Assembly: GCA_903970615.1 (NCBI GenBank)
Contig: CAJCJH010000052.1
Span: 1-64,000 of the forward strand
Direction: 5' to 3'
Source of the DNA: Rhodospirillales bacterium
Lineage (GTDB): Bacteria; Pseudomonadota; Gammaproteobacteria; Nevskiales; Nevskiaceae
DNA: 64,000 nt
The position numbers were made by a program, and so were the translations under genes. Shown piece by piece: positions 40,963-64,000 of the stretch; within the stretch, counting starts at the first letter, position 1, and each line of letters opens with the position of its first letter. The notes under the pieces are model-generated. The model saw only the letters and a list, made by a program, of their open reading frames with translations, was not told the DNA's origin and made no database searches.

Positions 40963-43464
40963 TCAGAACTGGTATTTGACGAAAGCCTGAGCGAAATCAC
41001 GATCCGACAGCAGGTTTTCATCGCCGCCGCCCCAATACCAGGTGTAGCCGAGGTTGAACGACAGCGAGGATTTGTAGCGCGTCTCCAGAAGCACATCGGC
41101 TTCCTTGCGGCCAGCGACAAATTCATAGCCAGGGCCGGGCGAGGTGCCTTGCACATCCTGCTTCAATTCGATGAACGGATGCAGGCCTACGTTGCGCAGC
41201 ACGTTCTCGTAGCTGGCGAGCACGATGATGCGATAGCCCCAGGAAACGGCATCGACGAAACCGGTCGGATCCTGCTGATGCGGGTTGAAGCGGGTGCCAT
41301 CCGGGCCATACGAGCAATCCGGAATATTGGAACAGGCCAGGCGCGAGCCATCAGCACCGGAACCGTCGGCGCCTGCGGTGGCGCTCAAGGAAGTTGCCGG
41401 CCCCTGAATTTGCAGTACATCGAGCTTCGGCAGATCGGGAATGAAATTCGCGCCGAATTCGCCGAGTACGATGATCTGGTCAGCGCCGAACGGATTGTCG
41501 GATTCGCCCAGCACGCGGGTGATGCCGAGGTCGAGCTGGATCAACTGAAAGCGTTCGTAACCCTGAATGTAGCCGGGATTATGTTTATCCAGCGGTCTCG
41601 AATAATCGGTAGCCGGATTCTGGCCGACAACGCCGCCACGATACGGAATGATGAAATTAGGAAACGAGCGCGCCGATCCGGGAATGTGGCCGACGGCGAG
41701 GTTGAACGTATCCGGATAAGGATTGGCGCCGGCCGCATTGACGAAGTCGCTGCTGCCATAAGTTTGCGTGCCGCCGGTTGGCGCATTGCCGATGGATGGC
41801 CCGCCCTGCGTGAGACTGGTGCCCTGGCAGTTCGAACTCTGCTGCGAGCAATTGCTCAGGAACGGTGCGGCTCCGGCAAAGGAAAGATCGGCGATCGAAA
41901 CCTGCATCGGCAGATTCGGCCGATAGGCGACTTCGCCCTGCAAGGAATATTCGCCGACGGTGGTATTGAAACTGACGCCGAGCAGGTGGATGTTTTCCGG
42001 ATATTGGAGGAATATCTTGCCGCTGTTCAGCGGTACCGCGTCGCTGCGCTGCGTGATCGGCGTGCCTTCGGTGAAAGCCGGAATAAATGGGCAATCGATG
42101 AAGAAGGTTTCGGTGCTTGTCGCGTTCTTGGAGCAGGCCTGCTGGCCGGCAAAGAAACCGAGGATCGGCAGGCGCGAGTGATAATTTTCATAATACAGCG
42201 ACAGATCGGTGCCACCGTTGAGCCAGTCGGCGTAATACTCTGCTTTCAGGCCGAACTGGCCCCAGGTTTTCGGCTCCATATCCGGCGCACGGCCGATGTA
42301 CGCGGTGGTGTAGGTAATCAATCCCAAAGGGTTGTCGAGTGGCTCGCCGATGTTGTCGGGGTCATCCGCCGAACCACCAAAACTGAGGTTGGCGTAATGG
42401 CCAGCGCCATTCGTGCCGATGTCGTTACTGGAAAAATAAGTGCCCGGCGTCTGCGCTTCGGTGGGTTGCCATTCGAGCTGATAAAAGCCTTCGAGGGTGA
42501 CGTTTTCGATCGGCGAAAAACTCAGGTCGAGCATGTTCACCGGCGTGAAATCTTCTTCGGTCTGATTGCCGATGCGATAGAAATTGTTGCCGTTGATCGG
42601 GTTCGCCGCGTTGATGCTATTGAATACGAGCGTGGTGCTCTCGCCCCAGCTCACCGCCTGACGTCCAAGCTTGAACGTCAGTTCCTTGTCTTCAGTGAAC
42701 GGAATCGGCAGCTTGCCGTAAAAATAGCTATCCAGATATTGCAGATTGGTACCGGACTGGCGCAGTTCTTCGCCATCCGTGCGCTTCGAGCGCACATAGC
42801 CGCCGGGACCGTACAGGCGCTCGTTGAGCGAACCTAGCGGCGCGTGATTGAGGCCGACTGCGGTCAATAGCGGAGTCAGGTTGGAAAGGCCGGTGATTGG
42901 TGAACCGAAACGGCCGACCTGATTCAAATTCTGCGGCGTGATCTCGTCCGGATGACGCTCGGTTTTATCGTCGTTGACGAAGTCGTAGAAATACAGCACG
43001 CGCGCAAAAAAACCGAAGTTCTTGTAGGTCAGCGTCAGGTCGGGCGTGACTTTCACCGGAGCCTGGAAAAACGATCCCTTGTTGTAATTGATGTCGCCAT
43101 CGTCGTTGTGCATCGAGTACTGGCCCGGCACTTCGGCCAGCCGCGCGGCGGGATAAGACTGCGTACGAAAGTCACCCTGGCAGGATTGATAAAAGATCGT
43201 ACCGTTCGCACCGGGCGCGGTGTTGCAGACATTGGGATTCAAGTCCGCTTTGCCGATCAGATTGACGCTCTGGCCTTGCGTGCGGAAGCCTGCGCCGGCC
43301 GTCAGCGTGTTGTTCAGCGTGGCGTGAATGCCGTCGCCATTGACGAAAGGCACTGGCACATCGAATTCCAAGGCCAGCGCTGCCGAGCCGCAACCCAGTG
43401 CTGAAGCAATGGCGATAGTGACGGCTGCGAAATGCCCCGGTGCAAATCCTGTTTTTGCCTGCAT
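40963..43464 (-). CDS. DUF1302 outer-membrane protein, copy A
   Basis: An 833-residue protein with a signal peptide (about residues 1-31) followed by LEFDVPVPF and long beta-rich repeats, typical of DUF1302. The ATG at 43464 is preceded by a very strong GGAGGGGAG ribosome site; an in-frame TTG five codons upstream is less likely. The C-terminus ends YQF, as in outer-membrane barrels needing the BAM complex. DUF1302 proteins often travel with DUF1329 proteins and are linked to handling of hydrophobic compounds in pseudomonads and relatives; the function here is unknown. The gene at 43760-46258 is a close paralogue. Confidence 0.85.
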   Translation of the reverse strand: MQAKTGFAPGHFAAVTIAIASALGCGSAALALEFDVPVPFVNGDGIHATLNNTLTAGAGFRTQGQSVNLIGKADLNPNVCNTAPGANGTIFYQSCQGDFRTQSYPAARLAEVPGQYSMHNDDGDINYNKGSFFQAPVKVTPDLTLTYKNFGFFARVLYFYDFVNDDKTERHPDEITPQNLNQVGRFGSPITGLSNLTPLLTAVGLNHAPLGSLNERLYGPGGYVRSKRTDGEELRQSGTNLQYLDSYFYGKLPIPFTEDKELTFKLGRQAVSWGESTTLVFNSINAANPINGNNFYRIGNQTEEDFTPVNMLDLSFSPIENVTLEGFYQLEWQPTEAQTPGTYFSSNDIGTNGAGHYANLSFGGSADDPDNIGEPLDNPLGLITYTTAYIGRAPDMEPKTWGQFGLKAEYYADWLNGGTDLSLYYENYHSRLPILGFFAGQQACSKNATSTETFFIDCPFIPAFTEGTPITQRSDAVPLNSGKIFLQYPENIHLLGVSFNTTVGEYSLQGEVAYRPNLPMQVSIADLSFAGAAPFLSNCSQQSSNCQGTSLTQGGPSIGNAPTGGTQTYGSSDFVNAAGANPYPDTFNLAVGHIPGSARSFPNFIIPYRGGVVGQNPATDYSRPLDKHNPGYIQGYERFQLIQLDLGITRVLGESDNPFGADQIIVLGEFGANFIPDLPKLDVLQIQGPATSLSATAGADGSGADGSRLACSNIPDCSYGPDGTRFNPHQQDPTGFVDAVSWGYRIIVLASYENVLRNVGLHPFIELKQDVQGTSPGPGYEFVAGRKEADVLLETRYKSSLSFNLGYTWYWGGGDENLLSDRDFAQAFVKYQF

Positions 43465-43675
43465 CTTTCTCCCCTCCAATCGATCAATCCGTGCCGTAGC
43501 CCATCGCTTTTCCGAAACGGCTCTCGACTCAAAAGCTGTTTTTTATTTTTGTATAAACGCGATGTCATGAACGCAACTTCGCACCTGCGTTCACAGTATG
43601 TTCCAACCCAAGCTCAGCTTGCCAGTGCGGTCAATCGATGTCGCTGACCGCCACGCCAGACCTGACTGGCTGCGC

Positions 43676-43709
43676 CGTCGCCAACGAATTTTTTTACTCG
43701 CTGGCGACG
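43676..43709. repeat. Long inverted repeat between the two DUF1302 genes
   Basis: CGTCGCCA pairs with TGGCGACG; one mismatch then CGA/TCG; the loop atttttttac holds seven T. Positions 43676-43709. The T run is in the loop and not after the stem, so an ordinary terminator is uncertain. Confidence 0.5.
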
Positions 43710-43759
43710 GTGCCCGGCTCGTTGCCGCAGCAGATCGGAACCCGGACCGGGCCTCTCGA

Positions 43760-46258
43760 TTAAAACTGGTATTTGATGAAAGCCTGCGCGAAATCACGAT
43801 CCGACAGCAGGTTGTAATTGCCGCCACCCCAGTACCAGTTGTAGCCGAGGTTGAACGACAGCGAGGATTTGTAGCGCGTTTCCAAAAGCACATCGACTTC
43901 CTTGCGGCCGGCTACAAATTCGAAACCCGGCCCCGGCGACGTGCCCTGAATATCCTGCTTCAAGGTCACGATCGGATGCAGGCCGACGTTGCGCAATACG
44001 TTTTCATAGCTCGCTAGTGCGATCAGTCGATAGCCCCAGGAAAACGCATCGACATAACCGGTGCGATCCTGCTGGTGCGGATTGAAACGCAGGCCGTCCG
44101 CACCATACGAGCAATCCGGGATATTCGAGCAGGCTTGTTTCGAGCGATCCGCGCCGGAGCCATCTGCGCCGGCGGTTGCGCTCAGGCCGATGCCGGGGCC
44201 ATCGATTTGCAGCACGTCGAGCGGCGGCAGATCGGGAATGTAATCGAAGCCGACTTCGCCGAGTACGATGATCTGGTCGGCGCCGAATGGATTGTCCGAT
44301 TCGCCCAGCACGCGGGTGATGCCGAGATCGAGCTGGATCAGCTGAAAGCGTTCGTAACCCTGGATGTAGCCGGGATTGCTGCGATTCAAAGGCTTGGTCG
44401 GATCGGTCGCCGGATTTTGACCAACCACTCCGCCGCGATACGGAATGATGAAATTCGGAAACGAGCGCGCCGAGCCCGGCACCTGACCGACGATCAGGCT
44501 GAGGCTATCCGCATAGCCGCCATCCACTCCTGGCGCGGTCTGGAAGCGGTTGTCGTTGTAAGCCGTCGCCGAAAATCCGCCATTCGCAGCATTGCCGACG
44601 TTTACGCCGGCATCCATGCAACCCTGACTGGCCTGCGAGCAGTTGTCCAGCGTCGGGCCGAATGCGGCAAACGCGAGGTCGGTGGCCGCCACCTGCATCG
44701 GCAGATTCGGCCGGTAAGCGACTTCGCCCTGCAGCGAATACTCTCCAATCGTGGTGTTGAAACTGGCGCCGAGCAGGTGAATGTCTTCGGGATATTGCAG
44801 GAAGAATTGCGCGGTATTCAGCGGTACCGCGTCGCTGCGCATCGTGCTGCCGGTCAAGGCCGTCAATACCGGTGCATTCGGGCAGCCCACGCCGAAGAAA
44901 TTGAGGGCATTGGTCGCCTGTTTCGCACAACTCAGCTGGGTGGCAAAGAAGCCAAGATAGGGCAGACGCGAGTGATAGTTTTCGTAATAGAGCGAAAGGT
45001 CGGTGCCGCCGTTGAGCCAGTCGGCGTAATACTCCAGCTTGATGCCGAACTGACCTGCCGTACGCGGCTGCATGTCTGGCGCGCGCTCCGCGTTCAGCGA
45101 GGTATAAGTAATCAGGCCGAGGGGGTTGTCGAGCGGATGACCAAGGCCGTTGGGATCGTCCGCGCCGCCGCCGAAGCTGAGGTTGACGAACGAGCCAGTG
45201 TCGTTGGTGCCGATGTCGTTGCTGGAAAAATAAGTGCCTGGCGTCTGCGCTTCGGTGGGCTGCCATTCGAGTTGATAGAAGCCTTCAACGGTGACATTTT
45301 CGATCGGCGAAAAACTCAGGTCGAGCATGTTGATCGGCGTGAAATCCTCTTCGGTCTGATTGCCGATGCGATAGAAATTATTGCCGTTGATCGGGTTCGC
45401 CGCGTTGATGCTGTTGAATACCAGCGTGGTGCTTTCACCCCAGCTCACACTCTGGCGACCGAGCTTGAAGCTGAGTTCCTTGTCGTCGGTCAGCGGAATC
45501 GGAATCTTGCCGTAGAAATAGCTATCCAAATATTGCAGATTGGTGCCGGACTGGCGCAGTTCTTCACCGTTGGTGCGCTTGGAGCGCACATACGCGCCCG
45601 GTCCGTAAAGCCGCTGGCTGAGCAACGGAATCGGCAGACCCAAGCCGGCCAGCGTGGAATTGGAAAGCCCAGGAATCTGCGTGCCAACGCGGCCGACCTG
45701 ATTGGCGTTCTGCGGTGTGATTTCATCCGGATGCCGCTCGGTTTTATCGTCGTTGACGAAGTCGTAAAAATACAGCGCGCGGGCGAAGAAGCCGAAGGTT
45801 TTATAGGTCAGTGTGAGGTCGGGCGTCACCTTCACCGGCGCCTGGAAAAACGAACCCTTGTTGTAGTTCAGATCGCCATCGTCATGGTTCATCGTGTAAC
45901 TGCCCGGCACTTCCCCAAGCCGCGCTGCGGGATAAGTCTGATCGCGGAAAACACCCTGGCAATCCTGATAATAAATCGTGCCGCCGGAGCCTTGGCCGGT
46001 GTTGCAGACATTGGGATTGAGATCGCCCTTGCCGATCAGATGGACATTCTGGCCTTCGGTGCGAAAACCAGCGCCGGCAGTGAGCGTCGTATTCAAGGCG
46101 CCATGAATGCCATCGCCGCCAAGGAATGGCACTGGCACATCGAATTCGAGCGCCGATGCCGCCGGCGCCAGCGCCAGACTCGCGCCGATCAATCCCGCCA
46201 AAGCGAATCCCAGCCGCGCCAGCCTGAGCGCCCGGCGGACGTAAACCTTCCGTTGCAT
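43760..46258 (-). CDS. DUF1302 outer-membrane protein, copy B
   Basis: An 832-residue paralogue of copy A. Signal peptide with Ala/Leu core (residues 8-33), then LEFDVPVPFLGGDG. Blocks such as WGESTTLVFNSINAANP and RIGNQTEEDF are nearly identical in both copies, while stretches around residues 205-220, 435-470 and 550-605 differ completely, as expected for surface loops. The C-terminus again ends KYQF. Three ATGs cluster at 46258-46267; 46258 has the GGGGGATGGG-like ribosome site at the best distance. Downstream on the other side lie the AarF-like and DUF1329 genes. Confidence 0.85.
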   Translation of the reverse strand: MQRKVYVRRALRLARLGFALAGLIGASLALAPAASALEFDVPVPFLGGDGIHGALNTTLTAGAGFRTEGQNVHLIGKGDLNPNVCNTGQGSGGTIYYQDCQGVFRDQTYPAARLGEVPGSYTMNHDDGDLNYNKGSFFQAPVKVTPDLTLTYKTFGFFARALYFYDFVNDDKTERHPDEITPQNANQVGRVGTQIPGLSNSTLAGLGLPIPLLSQRLYGPGAYVRSKRTNGEELRQSGTNLQYLDSYFYGKIPIPLTDDKELSFKLGRQSVSWGESTTLVFNSINAANPINGNNFYRIGNQTEEDFTPINMLDLSFSPIENVTVEGFYQLEWQPTEAQTPGTYFSSNDIGTNDTGSFVNLSFGGGADDPNGLGHPLDNPLGLITYTSLNAERAPDMQPRTAGQFGIKLEYYADWLNGGTDLSLYYENYHSRLPYLGFFATQLSCAKQATNALNFFGVGCPNAPVLTALTGSTMRSDAVPLNTAQFFLQYPEDIHLLGASFNTTIGEYSLQGEVAYRPNLPMQVAATDLAFAAFGPTLDNCSQASQGCMDAGVNVGNAANGGFSATAYNDNRFQTAPGVDGGYADSLSLIVGQVPGSARSFPNFIIPYRGGVVGQNPATDPTKPLNRSNPGYIQGYERFQLIQLDLGITRVLGESDNPFGADQIIVLGEVGFDYIPDLPPLDVLQIDGPGIGLSATAGADGSGADRSKQACSNIPDCSYGADGLRFNPHQQDRTGYVDAFSWGYRLIALASYENVLRNVGLHPIVTLKQDIQGTSPGPGFEFVAGRKEVDVLLETRYKSSLSFNLGYNWYWGGGNYNLLSDRDFAQAFIKYQF

Positions 46259-46408
46259 CATTCCCATCCCCCAACAACCGCGTTCGATGGCTCGTCATCG
46301 CCGCGCGCCTATCAGTGCGCGCCGATCAAGCCGCTTTTGTCAATGAATCCGAGGCCAAAAGAACCGCAGATTCAGTGGAAATATTGTAAGCCGAACAAGG
46401 TTCAAGTC

Positions 46409-46858
46409 TCACGCGATTTTCGCAAGATATTTGGTGACGGCCGCCGCCAGCGCCGGCAGCAGTGCGGCGACTTCGGTTTCGGCATCGCCGCTCAGGCGTT
46501 TGTAGATCGATTTCACCGAAGGATTTTTCACCACTGCCATGCGCCGGTCGGCAATCGCTACCAGATTGCGGCAGACGCTGTCGCTGTTCTGCAGCAGCAC
46601 CGCCTGGAAATCCGCACCGCTTTGCAGGCTTTGCGCATAACTGGGTTCGAGCGTGGCAACAATATCCGGAAGCAGATGTCCGATACCGCGCAGCAGCAGG
46701 TCCGGCCGCGCGGCTTTACCCATTGCCAGCGCGGCGCGCATGCCGATGCCGCGAATGCCGCCACGATGCGCCACGTAGTGTTCGATCACAGCTACGCAAT
46801 CCGTGGTCACTGCAGGCTGGTTGGCTGCACTCAGTAAAATGTCGCTCAGACTGGACAT
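46409..46858 (-). CDS. Unrecognised helical protein, possibly DUF6918-like
   Basis: A 149-residue protein starting MSSLSDILLSAANQPAV after a GGGAG site nine bases upstream. It is predicted mostly helical and Ala/Leu-rich, with RGIGMRAALAMGKAARPDL and LLPALAAAVTKYLAKIA. I do not recognise the family with certainty. It is divergent from the AarF-like gene, with only 47 bases between starts, which suggests shared regulation. Confidence 0.65.
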   Translation of the reverse strand: MSSLSDILLSAANQPAVTTDCVAVIEHYVAHRGGIRGIGMRAALAMGKAARPDLLLRGIGHLLPDIVATLEPSYAQSLQSGADFQAVLLQNSDSVCRNLVAIADRRMAVVKNPSVKSIYKRLSGDAETEVAALLPALAAAVTKYLAKIA

Positions 46859-46905
46859 GCTTTGATTCTCCCGATTCGCCGGATCATGCACTCAACACAA
46901 TTTTT

Positions 46906-48312
46906 ATGAACTTGAAGAAGCCGCCGCAGATTAAGCCAAGCATTGATCGTCTGGCGACCCGGCCGTTCGAGCGCAACCTTGCGCTGACCAAGCTCGGCTT
47001 CGGTGCGGGCACGCAGATCGTTGCGCATTCGGTGATGAACATTTTTCGCGGCCGCGTCGAGCGCTCCGAAGCCGACCGCGAGTTCTACGTGAAGCAGGCG
47101 CAGGTGCTGGCGGATGAACTCGGACGGCTCAAAGGCAGTGTGCTGAAAGCCGGCCAGATGCTCTCGCTGTACGGACAATATTTCCTGCCGGACGAAGCGG
47201 TGGAAGTGTTGTCGAGCCTGCAAGACGATACCCAGCCGGTGAGCTGGCGCGTGGTGGCGCCGGTTCTGGAAAAGCAGCTCGGCGCCAAGCGTCTGGCCGA
47301 ACTGGAGATCGATGAAAATCCGCTGGCGGCGGCGTCGCTCGGTCAGGCGCATCGCGCCACGCGCAAGCGCGATGGGCTTGAGCTGGTGGTCAAGGTGCAG
47401 TATCCGGGCGTGGCCGACGCGATTGACAGCGACATCAAAACCTTGTCGCGCCTGTTGCTGATGACGCGGCTGGCGCCGAAAGGGCTCGATCTGACGCCGG
47501 TTTTTACCGAGGTGCGCGAGATGCTGCACCGCGAAGTGGATTATGTCTCCGAAAAAAAATTCACCGAAGAATTTGCGCAGCGTTTGCAACACGACAAGCG
47601 TTTCATCGTGCCGCGCGTGCTGGCCGAATATTCCAGTGAACGGGTGTTGACGACGACGTTTGAAGCGGGCGTTTCCGCGCGTTCGCCGCAAGTGCTGAAA
47701 CTATCCGGCGCGCGCCGCAACAAGCTGGGTGCTGCGTTCATCGATCTGTTCGTCACCGAATTTTTCGATTGGCATCTGGTGCAGACCGATCCGCATTTCG
47801 GCAACTATCGCATCCGCATCGGCGAGCGTGCCGACGAAGATCGCATCGTGCTGTTGGATTTCGGCGCGACGCGGCCATTTCCTGCCGAATTCGTGCATCA
47901 CTACGCGGAGATCGTTTGCGGTGCGATCCAGCGCGATCGATCGCGGATCTTGCGTGGCGCAGTCGGAATTGGTTTGATGCACGCCGATTTTCCGGCTTCG
48001 GTGCAGCAGGCTTTCGCCGAAATGTGTGAGCTGATCGTCGAACCTTTCAACGTCGCTAATGATCCGGCGACGCCGCCGGAATTGTTCAACGCCAAAGGCG
48101 AATATCGCTGGGCGGCGGGCAATCTGCCGATGCGCGTGGCGAATGTGGCGGCACGCAATGCGCTGTCGCGGTATTTTCGCGTGCCGCCGCGCGAGATCGT
48201 GTTCCTGCATCGCCGCATCGCTGGCGTCTTCATCATGCTGGCGACGATGGGCGTGGAACTTAACCCGCGTGAGCGCATGTTGTCTGCGCTTGGAATCGAG
48301 TTGGCGCGTTGA
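46906..48312 (+). CDS. AarF/UbiB-type atypical kinase-like protein
   Basis: A 468-residue member of the ADCK/UbiB family. The family-specific KGSVLKAGQMLS (KxGQ motif), ASLGQAHRA in place of a usual P-loop, KVQYPGVADAI, and the catalytic-like DPHFGNY and LLDFGATRPF are visible. UbiB-like proteins act as ATPases for ubiquinone synthesis; this one is divergent, and a role in hydrophobic-compound handling with the neighbouring DUF1302/1329 genes is possible. The ATG at 46906 is chosen because upstream codons do not resemble the family. Confidence 0.88.
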   Translation: MNLKKPPQIKPSIDRLATRPFERNLALTKLGFGAGTQIVAHSVMNIFRGRVERSEADREFYVKQAQVLADELGRLKGSVLKAGQMLSLYGQYFLPDEAVEVLSSLQDDTQPVSWRVVAPVLEKQLGAKRLAELEIDENPLAAASLGQAHRATRKRDGLELVVKVQYPGVADAIDSDIKTLSRLLLMTRLAPKGLDLTPVFTEVREMLHREVDYVSEKKFTEEFAQRLQHDKRFIVPRVLAEYSSERVLTTTFEAGVSARSPQVLKLSGARRNKLGAAFIDLFVTEFFDWHLVQTDPHFGNYRIRIGERADEDRIVLLDFGATRPFPAEFVHHYAEIVCGAIQRDRSRILRGAVGIGLMHADFPASVQQAFAEMCELIVEPFNVANDPATPPELFNAKGEYRWAAGNLPMRVANVAARNALSRYFRVPPREIVFLHRRIAGVFIMLATMGVELNPRERMLSALGIELAR

Positions 48313-48498
48313 AATTGATCCGCCAACGGCTTGTGCGATAAGTGAACGCCCGGCGTGGCATTCACGGCGTATTTTCGGTAGCATTCCCCCACGAAAAAAC
48401 GGCCTCGATGCTGCATTCACCACGCTCAGCGGGTTTGCGCTCAACCGAAGTTAGAGACCAAAGTCAAAGAATCTACACCTGTGAGGAGCTTTACCACC

Positions 48499-49854
48499 AT
48501 GAAGAAACTATTGTTGTTGCTGTGCGCGGCAGGTCTGGGCATGTCTGCCCAGCAAGCGGCCGCAAAAGTCACCGCGGATGAGGCGGCGAAGCTGGGCAAG
48601 GACCTGACGCCGGTCGGCGCCGAGAAAGCCGGTAACAAGGAAGGCACCATTCCGGCCTGGACCGGCGGCCGCAAGAAAGACGGTGCGCTGTCCGGCGAAT
48701 TTCCGCATGACGATGCGATCGACGGCGAAGCGCCGCTGTTCACCATCACGCATGACAATTACACCAAGTACGCCGACAAGCTCACCGAAGGTCACAAAGA
48801 GCTGCTGAAGCGCTTTACCGATTACAAGATGAATGTGTACCCGACTCATCGTACGGTGTCGTGGCCGACGGAAATCTATGCGGCAACGGCGAAGAATGCG
48901 ACCACCTGCGAATTGCAGGGCACCGATATTCCGAACGACTGTACGCTCGGTTTCCCGTATCCGATCCCGAAAACCGGCGCGGAAGTGATCTGGAATCATC
49001 GTCTGAAATGGCGTGGCGAATCGGTGCGTCGCTACAACAACCAGTTCATCGTGCAGCCCAGCGGTGATTTCCAGGCGACCAAGATTCTGGAAGAAGTGAA
49101 GTTCTACTACGCCAGCATCAAGAATCCGAAAACGATGGTTTCGGGCAACGGCGAATTCCTGCGATATCTGTCGCACACGCTGGCGCCGCCGCGTCTGGCC
49201 GGCACTTTCATTCTCGTGCAGGAAAAATCCGGCTCGGGCGACGATGGCCGTGCGGCCTGGCTGTACAGCCCAGGCTTGAAGCGCATCCGCCGCGCGCCGA
49301 CGGTGCAATACGACAATCCGTACGAAGGCACCGACGGCAACGAGTTCTACGATCAGGTCGATCTGTTCAACGGCGCGCTGGATCGTTACGACTGGAAACT
49401 GGTCGGCAAGAAAGAGTTTTATCTGCCGTACAACTCGGACAAGATCGCCGGCAACAAGGTCAAGACCACCGACCTGATCCGGCCGAAGCACCTGAATCAG
49501 GATTTGCCGCGCTACGAACTGCATCGCTACTGGGTGGTCGAGGCCAACCTCAAGGCCGGCACCAATCACACCTTCAAGAAGCGCCGCTTCTATGTGGATG
49601 AGGATTCGTGGAATATCGAAGCGGTCGACGATTACGATAACCGCGATCAGCTCTACAAATTCCAGGAAGGCCATCTGTTCACCGCCGCCAACATTCTGGC
49701 GACTTCGACGGCACCTGAGTTGATCTACGATTTCGCCTCCGGCCGCTACTTCATCACCGCGGCATTCAACGAGGACAAGCCACCTGATGAAACGGTTAAC
49801 TTCTCCGACGATTACTTCACCGCCGCTTCGGTGCAGAAGATGAGCACCAAGTAA
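48499..49854 (+). CDS. DUF1329 periplasmic protein
   Basis: A 451-residue protein with a signal peptide (MKKLLLLLCAAGLGMSAQQAAA) and the DUF1329 pattern: GKDLTPVGAEKAGN, GTIPAWTGG, PTHRTVSWP, FPYPIPKTGAEVIWNHRLKWRG, WLYSPGLKRIRRAP and YRFDYD-like late segments with ELHRYWVVEA. A GAGGAG ribosome site lies ten bases before the ATG at 48499. The family resembles LolA/LolB-fold lipid carriers and commonly occurs with DUF1302 proteins; together they may shuttle hydrophobic molecules through the envelope. A strong terminator follows. Confidence 0.92.
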   Translation: MKKLLLLLCAAGLGMSAQQAAAKVTADEAAKLGKDLTPVGAEKAGNKEGTIPAWTGGRKKDGALSGEFPHDDAIDGEAPLFTITHDNYTKYADKLTEGHKELLKRFTDYKMNVYPTHRTVSWPTEIYAATAKNATTCELQGTDIPNDCTLGFPYPIPKTGAEVIWNHRLKWRGESVRRYNNQFIVQPSGDFQATKILEEVKFYYASIKNPKTMVSGNGEFLRYLSHTLAPPRLAGTFILVQEKSGSGDDGRAAWLYSPGLKRIRRAPTVQYDNPYEGTDGNEFYDQVDLFNGALDRYDWKLVGKKEFYLPYNSDKIAGNKVKTTDLIRPKHLNQDLPRYELHRYWVVEANLKAGTNHTFKKRRFYVDEDSWNIEAVDDYDNRDQLYKFQEGHLFTAANILATSTAPELIYDFASGRYFITAAFNEDKPPDETVNFSDDYFTAASVQKMSTK

Positions 49855-58400: not shown

Positions 58401-59165
58401 TCAAACATGCCCGCCGCCATCGACGCAGAGCATCTCGCCGGAAACGAAGCTGGCCATCGGCGAGGCGAAGAACAGCACGGCGTTGGCGATGTCGGCCGCG
58501 CTGCCCAGACGGCGCAGCGGCGTTGCGGCCAGCACCCGTTCCGCCAAGCGTTTGCCGCGCGGGTCTTGCTGGATCGACAAGCCTTGCCCGGCCTCGATAT
58601 GGCCGACGCCGACGCAATTGGCGCGAATCCCATTGCGGCCTTCTTCGCGGGCGATGCCTTGTACCAGCATTTCGACCGAGGCCTTCGGCCCGGCGGACAT
58701 CACATCGAGCGGTGGAAAGCGTTTGGTTCCCGCAGTCGACAGCGCGACCAGCGAGCCGCGCGAGCGTCGCAAAAATGGAATGGCGACATGAACCAGATTG
58801 AAGAAGCCGTTGACATCGGCGTTGACGATCGTAGCCCATTCCTGCGGCGGCAAATCCGCAATCGCCGAAATCCGGACGGTCGGGCCGGAGGCGTAGACCA
58901 CGGTGTGAATGCGCTCGAATTGCTGCTCGGCTTCGGCGAACAAGGTCTTGATCGATTCGATATTGCCGAGGTCGGCCTGCCGCATCAGCGCGCGTGCGCC
59001 AGCTTGTGCCAATTCCGCGTGCAACGATTCAGCGCGTTCGACTCGCTGGTGATAATTGAACGCGACCGCGCTGCCAATCCTGGCGAACGTGCGGCTGATT
59101 TCGGCCCCAAGCCCACCGCTGCCGCCGATCACCACGGCGCAACCTTGCTGCAATTCTGTAAACAA
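58401..59165 (-). CDS. SDR-family protein lacking the catalytic tyrosine
   Basis: A 254-residue classical-type short-chain dehydrogenase: cofactor loop GGSGGLGAEISRTFA in the Rossmann start, then the NAD-loop YASGP, and NADVNGFFNLVH. The catalytic zone reads ALSTAGTKRFPPLDVMSAGPKAS where active enzymes have Ser, Tyr-x3-Lys; no tyrosine is at the expected place. It ends with the usual FVSGEMLCVDGG. It may be a FabI/FabL-like or inactive relative; a reductase reaction is therefore uncertain. It faces the AraC-type regulator gene in the same direction, 144 bases further upstream. Confidence 0.8.
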   Translation of the reverse strand: MFTELQQGCAVVIGGSGGLGAEISRTFARIGSAVAFNYHQRVERAESLHAELAQAGARALMRQADLGNIESIKTLFAEAEQQFERIHTVVYASGPTVRISAIADLPPQEWATIVNADVNGFFNLVHVAIPFLRRSRGSLVALSTAGTKRFPPLDVMSAGPKASVEMLVQGIAREEGRNGIRANCVGVGHIEAGQGLSIQQDPRGKRLAERVLAATPLRRLGSAADIANAVLFFASPMASFVSGEMLCVDGGGHV

Positions 59166-59309: not shown

Positions 59310-60389
59310 CTACCAGTGCGCTTGCGGCGGCTCGGCGCGGTAAGTGTTCTGCGGCTGTCCGCGCATCGATCGTGACTTGCGAAAACCACCGCTGGATTGA
59401 AACGAACCGACGGTTTTGCCGGTCCAGGTCTTGAACGCGCGCCGGAACGCATCAACCTGCGAAAAGCCCAATAGAAAAGCCACTTCCTTCGCCGGCATCA
59501 TGCCCGCGCTGAGATATTCCCGCGCCAGTCCGCTGCGGAACTCATCGAGCACTTTCTGGAAGCTGGTGTTTTCGTCCTGCAGATAACGCCGCAGCGAGCG
59601 GGCGCTCATGTTGAGCGCTTCGGCGGCTTCCTCCAGCGCAGGAATGCTGCCGCGCGTGGTCAGCACCTGTCGCAGGCGCGAACTCACCGGGCCATTGCGG
59701 GAAATCTGCCGGACCAGATGCGTGCAGTGGCGGATGCAAAGCTCGCGCAGTTCGCTGTCATTGCTCTTGACCGGCGAATCGAGCATCGGTGCGCGCACCA
59801 CGGCGCGGGTTTCCGGCGCATCGAAAGCGATCGGGCATTGAAACATGCGCTCGTATTGTTGCCAGTGCGCGGGGCGCGGGAACGAAAATGCGGCGTCGAT
59901 GATTTCCAGCGGCTTGCCGGTCAACAGCAGCGAGAATTTCATCCCCATGACAAAGGTTTCTTCGACATAGAAGCGGAACACCGAACCGCTGATGCCATGC
60001 GGCGTGGCCGCAACGCCCCAGCTTTCGCCCGCGCCGGGATCGAGCTTGTCGAGCAGTTTCAAGGTGAAGGGAAAACCGACCGGCGAGCTGCCGTATTGCA
60101 GCCACAACCCGATCGCTTGCCCGAGCGTGCTGGACGAGGCCATCGCGTAACCGACTATGCCGAGATCGTTGAGCTGGGTCGCCTCGCCGACCTGCAGGCC
60201 AATGCCGGCGTTATCGGTCAGCCGGATCATGTTGGCGGCGACGGCATGACACTGATTCAGTTCGACCAGATAGGCGGAATCGCTGAGCCGGTCCGCATCG
60301 ATTCCAGTCCCCGCGAGCACCGCGCTGGCGGCGAATCCGCGCGACTGCATGAAGTTGACGTATTGACGAACCTGAGTGGGACGCAGCAT
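59310..60389 (-). CDS. AraC-family regulator with arabinose-binding-like N-terminal domain
   Basis: A 359-residue regulator. ATG at 60389 is chosen because GGAGGAG lies six bases before it. The N-terminal domain (residues 1-200, with QLNDLGIVGYAMASSSTLGQA) matches the type found in OruR/ArgR-like and lipid-metabolism regulators of this class. The C-terminal HTH domain (residues 250-335) has LNMSARSLRRYLQDEN and AFLLGFSQVDAFRRAFKTWTG. Regulators of this class commonly control neighbouring degradation genes, here the divergent flavoprotein operon at 60855. Confidence 0.9.
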   Translation of the reverse strand: MLRPTQVRQYVNFMQSRGFAASAVLAGTGIDADRLSDSAYLVELNQCHAVAANMIRLTDNAGIGLQVGEATQLNDLGIVGYAMASSSTLGQAIGLWLQYGSSPVGFPFTLKLLDKLDPGAGESWGVAATPHGISGSVFRFYVEETFVMGMKFSLLLTGKPLEIIDAAFSFPRPAHWQQYERMFQCPIAFDAPETRAVVRAPMLDSPVKSNDSELRELCIRHCTHLVRQISRNGPVSSRLRQVLTTRGSIPALEEAAEALNMSARSLRRYLQDENTSFQKVLDEFRSGLAREYLSAGMMPAKEVAFLLGFSQVDAFRRAFKTWTGKTVGSFQSSGGFRKSRSMRGQPQNTYRAEPPQAHW

Positions 60390-60529
60390 CTTTTTCTCCT
60401 CCATCATGACCGTGCAATCGTGGTTGCAATGTCGATAGTTCGCTAGCGTACGGAATTCTGCGGAGGCGAGCAACTGGGCATCGCTTCCATTGCAGATCGT
60501 CGTGGATCAACTTCGGCGGGCGAGTTTTG

Positions 60530-60554
60530 TCCGGGCTCTGACTTTCAGCCCGGA
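60530..60554. repeat. Inverted repeat 1 in the divergent control region
   Basis: TCCGGGCT and AGCCCGGA pair perfectly (eight pairs) around a nine-base loop ctgactttc. No T run follows on either strand, so it is more likely a regulatory or RNA structure than a terminator. Confidence 0.55.
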
Positions 60555-60584
60555 AACCTTGAATCCGAAAGCGTTCTGCATTCC

Positions 60585-60603
60585 GCGGCTGACCCCCAGC
60601 CGC
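60585..60603. repeat. Inverted repeat 2 in the divergent control region
   Basis: GCGGCTG and CAGCCGC pair perfectly (seven pairs) around the loop acccc, 30 bases after repeat 1. No T run follows. Confidence 0.5.
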
Positions 60604-60854
60604 CTGGCGCAAGCCTGCGGTTTGGCCACTTTTGCATGATGGTCGGCCTGATTTGCCGGTTGAAGCTGTTCTAACTTACCGGTCCAAGCAGTGCTGATCC
60701 GCTTCGATTTTCGCTGCGATCCGGCAAGGTTCGTGTCTCTCGATATCAATCGCGCGCCACAGCAGGCCGGCTGCAAGCGATGCAGCGGCGGCTCGTGAGC
60801 CTCGCGCACATCGTCAAATCTGATTCAAATTAAAACTCAAGAGGAGCAAAAATA

Positions 60855-62447
60855 ATGTCGAGCGGATATGACATCGTCGTGATGGGCGCCGGCAGCAATT
60901 CGCTGGTGGCGGCTGCGTATCTGGCGAAGGCCGGCAAGCAGGTGCTGGTGCTGGAAAAGAACGATCAGTGCGGCGGCGGCGTGGTGTCGATCGAAATTGC
61001 GCCGGGCTTCATCCACGATCCGCATGCCTCGGGCTATTACCTGTGCATCGCCAGCCCCGCGGTCAAGGATGACGAACTCGGCCTGGCTTCCAAATTTGGT
61101 TTGCAATGGAAGACCTGGCAGGCCGGCTTCGCCACCATTTTCGACAGCGGCGACGGCCTTGTGGCGTATGGCGATCTCGACAAGACCTGCCAGGACATCG
61201 CCCAGTATTCGCACAAGGATGCCGAGACTTATCGCGCCTTCGCCACCAATTGCATCGCGCTGTTGCCGCTGCTGAGCAAGAGCGCTTCAACGCCGCCGCT
61301 GCCGACCGGCGCGTTCATTTCGCTGCTCGACCAAAGCGCCAGCGGACGCCGCCTGGTCGACATGATGTTCATGAGCGTTTACGACATTCTCGAAAACCTG
61401 TTCGAGAGCGATGAAGTCCGCATTCACTTGAGCAAGTGGTGCGCCGAGGCGATGGAAGGCCCGGACGTGAAAGGCACCGGCGTGACGCTGGTCAACCTGC
61501 TGGGTCTCGCACATGCCTACGACGGCCACATTCCGGTCGGCGGTTCGCGCGCAGTGACCAATTCACTGATCAAGTGCATTGAGCATTACGGTGGCACCGT
61601 GCGCACCAACGCCGAGGTCAAGCAGGTGCTCATCAGCAGCGGCAAGGCCACCGGCGTGCTGATGGCGGATGGCGAAAAAATTCTGGCGAAGGATGCCGTG
61701 ATCGCCAACATCCATCCCTGGCGCATCGAGGAATATCTGCCGGGCGCAGTCGATCCCGCGCTGGTTGCGGCCGCGCGCGGCGTCAAGCTCAGCAATCACG
61801 GCGCGCTCAACCAGCAGATCGCGCTATCGGAATGGCCGCAATTCAAGGCCGGTCAGGAGCCGTGGTCGCAGGCGCTGTGCATCGAATATGTGCGCAAGGA
61901 TTTAACCGGCATCCGCAAGGTGTTCGATCAATACCGTTATGGCGAAATTCCACAACACCATTTGTCGCCGCTGACGATTCTGAATTCGCGCAAAGACCCC
62001 ACGCGCGCACCGAGCCACGATCACTGCGCGATGTATCTGTATCACTTCGCGCCGCGCGTGCTGGCAGATGGCGGGCTCGAAGGCTGGAAGAAACATGGCC
62101 AGGCGTTTGCCGATGCGATCTGGGAAGAATTCAAGAGCTACTGCACGAACATGGACGATTCCAAAATCATCGCGCGCCACATCGAAACGCCGCTGGATCA
62201 TCACCATCACTCGAACAACATGATGACCGGCGACATCTTCGGCATCGGCACCACTGCCGGCCAGTTGCTCGGCCGCCGGCCGCTGGTGGAACTGGCGCAG
62301 TACAAAGTGCCGGGCATCGACGCGCTGTATCTCGCGGGCCCCGCGCAGCATCCGGGCGGCACCGTCACGTTCGGCGGTCGCGCTACTGCGATGAAGATGA
62401 TGATGGACTGGAAGATGGATTTGAAGAAAGCCTTTACGGTCATTTGA
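60855..62447 (+). CDS. NAD(P)/FAD-dependent oxidoreductase, phytoene-dehydrogenase-like
   Basis: A 530-residue flavoprotein. The dinucleotide site reads VVMGAGSNSLVAAAYLAKAG, then VLEKNDQCGGG; central GGSRAVTNSLIKCIEHYGG matches the CrtI/retinol-saturase group, and the C-terminal HPGGTVTFGGRAT motif closes the FAD site. GAGGAG lies eight bases before the ATG. Members desaturate or isomerise isoprenoid or other hydrophobic chains. As no carotenoid synthase gene is near, the substrate is unknown. It heads a four-gene operon under the AraC-type regulator. Confidence 0.85.
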   Translation: MSSGYDIVVMGAGSNSLVAAAYLAKAGKQVLVLEKNDQCGGGVVSIEIAPGFIHDPHASGYYLCIASPAVKDDELGLASKFGLQWKTWQAGFATIFDSGDGLVAYGDLDKTCQDIAQYSHKDAETYRAFATNCIALLPLLSKSASTPPLPTGAFISLLDQSASGRRLVDMMFMSVYDILENLFESDEVRIHLSKWCAEAMEGPDVKGTGVTLVNLLGLAHAYDGHIPVGGSRAVTNSLIKCIEHYGGTVRTNAEVKQVLISSGKATGVLMADGEKILAKDAVIANIHPWRIEEYLPGAVDPALVAAARGVKLSNHGALNQQIALSEWPQFKAGQEPWSQALCIEYVRKDLTGIRKVFDQYRYGEIPQHHLSPLTILNSRKDPTRAPSHDHCAMYLYHFAPRVLADGGLEGWKKHGQAFADAIWEEFKSYCTNMDDSKIIARHIETPLDHHHHSNNMMTGDIFGIGTTAGQLLGRRPLVELAQYKVPGIDALYLAGPAQHPGGTVTFGGRATAMKMMMDWKMDLKKAFTVI

Positions 62448-62475
62448 TCCTCCGTTCGCAAGGCGAGGTCCTGAC

Positions 62476-63204
62476 ATGGCAATGTATGAAACCCGAGCGG
62501 TTCTTCAAACCGTCGATCAACATGCGCTGCCGATCATGGCGTTGTGCATGCTGGCGCTGGTGGGCAACTATATTTACTGGATTGAAAATCTCCGCCTGGG
62601 CTTTCGCCACAAAATCTATTCGATGCCGGTCGGCTGCCTGCTGTTTTTCCTGCCGCACGACGCCACTTTCGTCGCTCTGTATTGGCATTGGTTCCACGAC
62701 ATCAATCATTGGTTTCCGAAGTTGTGGTGGGCTGGGCTTTGCGTCACCGTCTGCATGGAGCTTGTCTTCCTGACGATGCTGCTCAAGTACGGACGAAAGG
62801 AGCTGGCTCCGCGCGCCAGCCAAAGCTTGTTCTCCGGCATCATCCTGTTGGGGCTGATACTTTGCAGCATCGCCTGGCTGGTGGTGAAAAGCACCATGGA
62901 TGATGAACTGTTCCTGGTGATCTTCGGCGTTACCCTTTTCTGGTGCGCGCCCTTCAACTTTGGATTGATGGCGCTGCGGCAGTCCGCTGTCGGCCAGTCG
63001 CAATTGGCCTGGCTGGGTTTCCTGATGATGCCGATCTTCTATTATCCGGCGACAATGATGCTCTCCCCCGGATTCCACTCACCGTTGTGGATCGCGTTTG
63101 GCGTCGCCACCGTGGTCGGCGGCCTCGTCAATCTTGCTTACATTCGTTCACTTCAGCATCTGCGAATTCCTGCGGCAGCGGCCCAGCTTCTCCAATCCAG
63201 ATAG
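62476..63204 (+). CDS. Seven-helix membrane protein, Pyr4/PaxB-like (tentative)
   Basis: A 242-residue protein with seven hydrophobic helices (about residues 15-34, 48-68, 82-102, 117-137, 143-163, 176-196, 204-223). A GAGG site lies nine bases before the ATG. Size and topology, and the LVGNYIYWIENLRLGFRHK and LLKYGRKEL pieces after helices 1 and 3, recall transmembrane terpene cyclases of fungal meroterpenoid clusters. Asp62 sits in helix 2 (PHDATFV), where the fungal enzymes have a catalytic Glu; the second acidic residue of their last helix is absent here. So catalysis is unproven. It follows the flavoprotein gene by 28 bases. Confidence 0.5.
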   Translation: MAMYETRAVLQTVDQHALPIMALCMLALVGNYIYWIENLRLGFRHKIYSMPVGCLLFFLPHDATFVALYWHWFHDINHWFPKLWWAGLCVTVCMELVFLTMLLKYGRKELAPRASQSLFSGIILLGLILCSIAWLVVKSTMDDELFLVIFGVTLFWCAPFNFGLMALRQSAVGQSQLAWLGFLMMPIFYYPATMMLSPGFHSPLWIAFGVATVVGGLVNLAYIRSLQHLRIPAAAAQLLQSR

Positions 63205-63212
63205 GATCCCGA

Positions 63213-63416
63213 ATGAAACTGTTAACGTCCGATCAATCCGAGCTGATGGAAGTCAGCGGGCTCAAATCCGAAGGCAACAATCTTATCGTCGTCGGCACCA
63301 TCATGGGTGCGATGCCGGTGGAAGCGGTGCTGACGCCGGCACAATTGCGTCAGGCGTTCAAGCTGCTGAGCCTGGGGATTCTGTTTTTCATCGTCGGCAT
63401 GCTGTTCAAGAAATAG
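63213..63416 (+). CDS. Tiny membrane protein, 67 residues
   Basis: Starts at ATG 63213 with AGGA six bases ahead and nine bases after the preceding stop. Residues 20-33 form a hydrophobic/Gly patch (NNLIVVGTIMGAMPVE) and residues 50-64 one membrane helix (LLSLGILFFIVGMLF) ending in two lysines. Family unknown. It sits inside the operon between the membrane protein and the crotonase. Confidence 0.6.
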   Translation: MKLLTSDQSELMEVSGLKSEGNNLIVVGTIMGAMPVEAVLTPAQLRQAFKLLSLGILFFIVGMLFKK

Positions 63417-63419
63417 CGC

Positions 63420-64000
63420 ATGGAATTATCCGGCTACCAGACGCTGGCATTGGCCCGCGACGGCGCGGTGCTCACCGTTGCGCTCAATCGCCCCGAGTTG
63501 ATGAACGCGACCAATGCGCTGATGGAGATCGAGCTGTGCCGATTCTTTATCGAGGTGTCGACCGATCCCGAAACGCGCGTCGTCATTCTCACTGGCCAAG
63601 GCAAGGCTTTCAGCGGCGGCGGTGATTTCGGCTACATCCGCGAAGCGATGGACCAGCCTGAGCGTTTCTGGAATGCGATGCCCTACGCCAAGCGGCTGAT
63701 TTTTTCGATGCTCGATTGCCCCAAGCCGATCATCGCCAAGATCAATGGTCACGCGATGGGTCTGGGTGCGACGCTCGCGCTTTTTTGCGATGTCACCTTC
63801 GCCGCGAATCACGCGAAGATCGCCGATCCGCATGTCGCTATCGGCTTCGTTGCCGGCGATGGCGGCGCGGTGATCTGGCCGCAACTGGTGGGCTACAACC
63901 GCGCGAAGGAATATCTGTTCACCGGCGAAGCGCTGCTCGCGTCGGAGGCGGAACGCATCGGCTTAATCAATCACGCCGTGCCTGCGGAAGAACTCGATCA
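63420..64000 (+). CDS. Enoyl-CoA hydratase/isomerase (crotonase) family protein, cut at the window end
   Basis: 193 codons are visible and the frame is open at the last base. The oxyanion-hole sequence GKAFSGGGDFGYI and GHAMGLGATLALFCDVTFAAN mark the crotonase fold. The catalytic glutamates of hydratases are replaced: DPHVAIGF has His and VAGDGGAV has Asp, a pattern common in isomerase- or hydratase-like subfamilies with GDGG. It begins four bases after the 67-residue protein. It implies a CoA-thioester intermediate in the operon's pathway. Confidence 0.9.
   Translation, partial: MELSGYQTLALARDGAVLTVALNRPELMNATNALMEIELCRFFIEVSTDPETRVVILTGQGKAFSGGGDFGYIREAMDQPERFWNAMPYAKRLIFSMLDCPKPIIAKINGHAMGLGATLALFCDVTFAANHAKIADPHVAIGFVAGDGGAVIWPQLVGYNRAKEYLFTGEALLASEAERIGLINHAVPAEELD

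Follow-up and report, generated by a model that had tools for sequence, protein, structure and literature searches.

The window examined here (positions 1 to 64,000 of contig C52, CAJCJH010000052.1, from a 3.17 Mb genome assembly) ends in a close-packed operon divergent from an AraC-type regulator gene. The operon encodes a FAD-dependent oxidoreductase of the CrtI/CrtO superfamily (FADox), a seven-helix membrane protein of 242 amino acids (aa), a 67-aa protein and a crotonase. We found that FADox and the 67-aa protein form a real unit, with a linkage far beyond chance, and that the 67-aa protein is a dedicated flavoprotein partner. The seven-helix protein is also linked to flavoproteins, less tightly than the small protein. 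Judged by its sequence, FADox is neither CrtI nor CrtO. Taken together, and with an even chance of being right, we read the locus as an AraC-controlled catabolic operon for terpenoid- or sterol-like substrates, in which a membrane-tethered allylic dehydrogenase with a probably covalent flavin would work with an intramembrane partner.

FADox belongs to a His57 clade that is separate from CrtI

The initial annotation had described the flavoprotein as CrtI-like. Its membership of the CrtI/CrtO superfamily stands, and it also shares overall length with these proteins, but it is not a CrtI-type enzyme: its flavin site has a His like those of limonene dehydrogenase (CtmAB), itself a flavoprotein of the CrtI superfamily, and of delta-24 steroid desaturase. 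In a tree of 41 relatives, FADox fell within a 24-member clade (support 100/100) apart from CrtI. All 24 members have His at the His57 column, where CrtI has Gly, and all contain the motif P-G-[FY]-x-[HNC]-[DE]-x-H-[AS]; the CrtI of the host genome itself reads GFTFDAGPT at this site. Because an archaeal protein (Salinirubellus) outside the clade also has His at the motif, this residue alone does not define the clade. The top NCBIfam scores of FADox were 231 bits for CrtO (cut-off 1000) and 82 bits for the crtI family (cut-off 238), and no NCBIfam carotenoid-enzyme cut-off was reached. CrtI was rejected as the identity of FADox on account of the His57 clade and these scores. A viral scan returned no FADox relative.

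According to PMC11061730, the flavin of CtmAB and of delta-24 steroid desaturase is bound covalently to the His of G-F-L/R-X-N/S-T/L-H-A; the desaturase, from Sterolibacterium denitrificans, is described there as acting on the isoprenoid side chain of sterols, with a proposed alpha4beta4 architecture and, in the part of the source covered, no mention of a small partner or a seven-helix protein. His57 occupies the corresponding motif position in FADox. The fixed G, F, H and A all match, and the three degenerate positions (L/R, N/S and T/L) read I, D and P. By analogy, since the fixed residues agree, the FADox flavin is likely to be covalently bound at His57. Since CtmAB and the desaturase both act on isoprenoids at allylic positions, allylic attack on an isoprenoid is our best guess at the chemistry of FADox. 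The known CtmAB/delta-24 desaturase members span an identity range of 34–38%.

A 2.6 Mb betaproteobacterial metagenome assembly (G450) contains 12 FADox-family genes, including side-by-side pairs that resemble the alpha and beta subunits of the known enzymes.

A 67-aa protein is a dedicated partner of the flavoprotein

The 67-aa protein is a member of a family of 63–85 aa whose alignment shows the core ELMEI...G..L...G.I[MF]GAMP....L.PEE.R, followed by a hydrophobic helix with basic residues at its end. No Pfam or NCBIfam model matched the family above cut-off. In the structural model, helix 42–65 has a predicted local distance difference test (pLDDT) score of 85–95, and the model is poor outside this C-terminal helix (pLDDT 67).

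Co-occurrence with the flavoprotein, proposed in the initial annotation as a check on both the 67- and the 242-residue proteins, was found for each. Five of the 85 genomes searched in the order encode the small protein, and the same five are the ones with close FADox relatives (E below 1e-120). At class level, the two coincide at strong scores in the same 3 of 369 genomes. With the host genome itself left out, the probability of such overlap by chance is ∼5e-7 (order) and 1.5e-5 (class), values that are not corrected for kinship. Among 72,556 plasmid records, the small protein occurs in eight (nine places), exactly the eight with the best FADox matches, and each is adjacent to the flavoprotein gene; 29 plasmids encoding weaker flavoproteins (30% identity or less) gave no match to the small protein. 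In the host genome, a FADox paralog (56% identical; contig C120) is preceded by a small gene, and 5 of the 12 FADox-family genes in G450 have one adjoining.

In total, the small gene lies beside a member of the His57 clade in 23 cases and beside a FAD_binding_2 protein in one; the window is the case among the 23 in which a seven-helix gene separates the pair. The small gene may precede, follow or diverge from FADox, and this varying order argues that selection has kept the two genes together, as opposed to a single segment having been inherited recently. The pairing of a flavin enzyme with these two kinds of membrane protein is seen again in bacteria that are only distant relatives, and so reflects a genuine unit, not genes that are neighbours by accident. 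The FAD_binding_2 case comes from another family of the class (G248), where the small relative overlaps the flavoprotein gene by 4 bases (Pfam 4.2e-27; L148 6037-7742) and no CrtI-like protein was present within the 15 kb read around it. This match, weak at first, looks real with a wider profile and given its place behind another flavoprotein. The small family thus appears to serve more than one flavoprotein family, and it may extend past the CrtI-like clade. A role as membrane tether or electron-transfer subunit is suggested by its C-terminal helix together with its constant position next to a flavoprotein.

A seven-helix membrane protein is linked to a wider set of flavoproteins

The seven-helix protein was found in 3 of the 85 genomes of the order, all of which have the FADox pair, and in 1 of the 369 genomes of the class, the host genome itself. 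Paralogs are frequent, with four in the host genome (G000) and five in Hydrocarboniphaga (G010). Only one of the 72,556 plasmids, that of Diaphorobacter sp. HDW4B, encodes the protein, and this is also the best FADox plasmid. Its island combines the seven-helix gene with a 74.5% identical FADox relative, two FADox–small pairs, and relatives of 236-aa and 273-aa membrane proteins encoded downstream of the window.

A seven-helix profile was positive in 7 of 346 actinomycete genomes, and no terpenoid-biosynthesis context was recognised in those seven. Two seven-helix genes of Aeromicrobium sp. Root495 each adjoin a different gene of the FADox superfamily, one with a 4-base overlap and the other 4 bases behind its neighbour; two adjacencies of the same kind occur in actinomycete G498. 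In agreement with the proposed check, the 242-residue protein therefore recurs beside FADox-superfamily genes in Actinomycetota as well. The flavoproteins of both actinomycetes are at best 26–28% identical to the window FADox, and those of Aeromicrobium fall outside the His57 clade in the tree, so the seven-helix protein is linked to the flavoprotein family at large. Not all seven-helix genes adjoin a flavoprotein gene; one example is a paralog on contig C66.

That paralog (L020 4346-8919) adjoins cytochrome-oxidase subunit III/IV-like genes and a NorD/NorQ-like pair, as read by eye, and similar oxidase-like neighbours are present in the Diaphorobacter and Aeromicrobium islands. Distant seven-helix relatives (17–19% identical) lie beside a divergent TetR-like gene in Lactobacilli (L039 8001-8723, L040 8001-8720) whose genomes have no FADox.

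The 242-aa protein has no Pfam or NCBIfam family, and a Protein Data Bank sequence search gave no relative. Its AlphaFold2 (AF2) model (mean pLDDT 90.1) has seven membrane helices in what appears to be a fold like that of SWEET, cystinosin and the KDEL receptor. In the structural comparison, the top 16 rows were all cystinosin, KDEL receptor or SWEET (Z 8.3–12.8), after which Z fell to 5.4; Foldseek agreed weakly, and a viral structure library gave weak PQ-loop rows only. The matches covered 178–201 residues at a root mean square deviation of 3.8–5.6 Å and 7–13% identity, and Z values under 13 may reflect only a common helix arrangement, a level that chance can reach for helical bundles.

This fold makes it possible, though less probable than an enzymatic role, that the protein is a SWEET/PQ-loop-type carrier that moves a hydrophobic substrate or intermediate over the inner membrane, with FADox and the small protein acting at the cytoplasmic face. 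However, the window protein lacks a PQ motif, none of 10 seven-helix members matched Pfam PQ-loop/MtN3, and the several paralogs per genome also speak against a carrier. In addition, eight residues (H61, D62, W72, W79, W85, E95, D143 and T153) are invariant in 25 relatives, a set with His-Asp, Glu, Asp and three Trp that looks more like an active site and sets the family apart from SWEET, cystinosin and the KDEL receptor. With its His, acidic and Trp residues placed in or close to the membrane, this set is reminiscent of enzymes that protonate alkenes and steady carbocations, and by analogy we prefer an enzyme over a carrier.

Organisation of the locus

As the initial annotation had stated, four plus-strand genes are closely packed (spacings of 28, 8 and 3 bases) opposite an AraC-type regulator, which was confirmed by Pfam, and the gene set matches no described operon. 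The third-codon G+C of the long operon genes (0.72–0.78) fits real coding. Features are listed in Table 1.

Table 1. Features of the FADox operon and its surroundings (window positions unless stated otherwise)
Feature	Position	Strand	Basis
SDR oxidoreductase	58401..59165	-	Pfam adh_short_C2
AraC-type regulator, Arabinose_bd domain, divergent from operon	59310..60473	-	Pfam Arabinose_bd 2.7e-34, HTH_18 5.9e-16; NCBIfam
Divergent intergenic region, presumed AraC operator/promoter	60474..60854	.	Position only
FADox, CrtI/CrtO superfamily, His57 clade, 530 aa	60855..62447	+	Pfam Amino_oxidase/NAD_binding_8, tree
GFIHDPHA motif, predicted covalent flavin site (His57 codon 61023-61025)	61005..61028	+	Clade alignment and published consensus
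Seven-helix membrane protein, 242 aa, undescribed family	62476..63204 (start may be 62482)	+	AF2 model, 25 relatives
67-aa flavoprotein partner, hydrophobic C-terminal helix, undescribed family	63213..63416	+	Adjacency to FADox, helix prediction
Crotonase (enoyl-CoA hydratase/isomerase), 264 aa	63420..64000 in window, to contig 64214	+	Pfam ECH_1 7.6e-42

No sigma-70 consensus site was found in the AraC–FADox intergenic region, and promoter and terminator scans gave matches at shuffle level. In G450 (contig C162), too, the gene for an AraC relative diverges from FADox, and an SDR relative (88% identical) adjoins seven-helix genes in Hydrocarboniphaga. The crotonase, which the initial annotation had counted as part of the combination, is present in the operon, but its place is not kept in relatives: the best one is 44% identical and lies 3 kb away in Diaphorobacter. 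It is the most loosely attached part of the operon.

Beyond the crotonase, whose stop codon lies outside the window, the contig continues with a CurA-like oxidoreductase gene (minus strand) and a second seven-helix paralog at 65.5–66.3 kb. Further along are a DapB/2,4-diaminopentanoate-dehydrogenase-like protein, two more membrane proteins, a second AraC and a TonB receptor. The 236-aa membrane protein (C52:67655-68365) has no Pfam or NCBIfam match. Genes for its relatives turn up repeatedly, and often in multiple copies, next to seven-helix or flavoprotein genes in both Pseudomonadota and Actinomycetota.

Neighbouring genes point to a hydrophobic substrate

Four neighbourhoods, those of Hydrocarboniphaga, G027, Diaphorobacter and G450, contain varying sets of genes for TonB receptors, DUF1302/DUF1329 proteins, MMPL proteins, acyl-CoA ligases and dehydrogenases, Rieske oxygenases, EcKL-type phosphotransferases and AveC-like membrane proteins. 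The DUF1302/DUF1329 set often accompanies the uptake of hydrophobic compounds. The window itself encodes two DUF1302 proteins (minus strand) and one DUF1329 protein (plus strand) at 40963-49854, and AveC-like membrane proteins are encoded on both contigs that carry host FADox paralogs, C120 (L021 1802-2866; PF17198 at 2.6e-47) and C55 (L022 208-1269). For comparison, the island of Castellaniella defragrans that encodes CtmA (CDM25290) and CtmB (CDM25289) contains acyl-CoA dehydrogenases, a citrate-lyase-like gene, a tyrosine phosphatase and transport genes, with two hypothetical genes, ctmC (CDM25288) and ctmD (CDM25287), behind ctmB that had no database match in 2014 (PMC4109377).

As a parallel with the delta-24 steroid desaturase, the host genome also has a KstD-like enzyme (593 bits, under its cut-off) and a cluster that reads like Ipd/HsaC steroid genes. 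An HsaC-type dioxygenase was absent from G450 and Aeromicrobium at E 1e-20, and steroid-ring catabolism as a trait common to all carriers is unsupported. From the neighbourhoods, with their catabolic and uptake genes, and the steroid-gene results, we infer a hydrophobic, probably isoprenoid substrate class in which no one compound stands out. A hydrophobic isoprenoid- or sterol-like substrate, in line with the initial suggestion, is likely.

These neighbourhoods also bear on another, in our view improbable, reading, in which the operon serves terpenoid or meroterpenoid biosynthesis and its seven-helix protein would be a bacterial counterpart of the Pyr4-like transmembrane terpene cyclases. Pyr4-like cyclases are compact seven-helix proteins with a catalytic acidic residue (PMC13307353), a general description that the size, seven helices and conserved intramembrane acids of the window protein fit. 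Of 1107 bacterial candidates, only 264 lie near terpenoid genes (PMC13307353). However, the window locus has no biosynthetic context, and among the members whose surroundings were read none had a prenyltransferase or polyprenyl synthase gene as a visible neighbour. What lies beside them encodes CoA enzymes of catabolism, proteins for uptake and TonB receptors, and the setting is catabolic in G000, G010, G450, Diaphorobacter and Aeromicrobium.

Proposed role of the operon

In the reading that we favour, the AraC regulator would control a catabolic operon in which FADox, its flavin probably covalent on His57, acts on a hydrophobic substrate of isoprenoid or sterol-like type and removes hydrogen at an allylic position. 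The outcome would be desaturation or water-dependent hydroxylation, as in CtmAB and the delta-24 steroid desaturase. The C-terminal hydrophobic helix of the 67-aa protein would keep FADox at the membrane, the site of the substrate and the electron acceptor. The seven-helix protein would handle the same membrane-dissolved substrate before or after the FADox step, most likely as an intramembrane acid–base enzyme (isomerase, hydratase or cyclase type) acting through H61-D62, E95 and D143, a carrier role being less likely. The product would then enter beta-oxidation by way of the crotonase and the CoA enzymes around it.

Several observations weigh against this reading. The likeness of FADox to CtmAB and the delta-24 desaturase is drawn from the published motif and descriptions, and FADox departs from the consensus at its degenerate positions. 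Each of the known enzymes consists of two unlike subunits whose genes are adjacent, and CtmAB also has the ferredoxin CtmE and the reductase CtmF; in contrast, the window operon has a single FADox gene, its 56% identical paralog being on a different contig, together with the 67-aa and seven-helix proteins, and no ferredoxin gene. The C55-type FADox paralogs and the side-by-side flavoprotein pairs of G450 lack a small gene. Finally, the substrate class may vary, because FADox relatives in Novosphingobium and Burkholderia have extradiol-dioxygenase-like or quinone oxidoreductase genes as neighbours.

It is very improbable that FADox is instead a conventional, non-covalent CrtI/CrtO-type carotenoid or isoprenoid desaturase or ketolase with incidental neighbours: CrtO and crtI are its best NCBIfam matches and phytoene dehydrogenase 4dgk is its nearest solved relative by sequence, but the scores are far under the curated cut-offs, the His57 clade is separate, no carotenoid genes were seen in contig 57–74.5 kb (a CrtI-like/phytoene-synthase-like pair lies elsewhere, on contig C85), and chance falls far short of explaining how FADox and the small protein are linked.

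A more far-reaching version of our proposal, which we think rather unlikely, is that the seven-helix family is a new intramembrane enzyme class on a SWEET/KDEL-receptor-like fold. It would perform proton-driven carbocation chemistry on terpenoids or sterols in a membrane complex with a covalent-flavin allylic oxidase, the two being joined by a 67-aa adaptor that other flavoproteins use as well.

Implications

Among flavoenzymes that oxidise allylic positions of terpenes or sterols without oxygen, the literature covered names only CtmAB and the delta-24 steroid desaturase as characterised. To these, our analysis adds a sequence-defined clade with the same flavin-site His, a dedicated small partner that can be used as a genome marker, and a so far undescribed family of seven-helix proteins with ties to FADox-superfamily flavoproteins in two phyla. 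With these components defined, the membrane needs of such flavoenzymes become a directly testable question.

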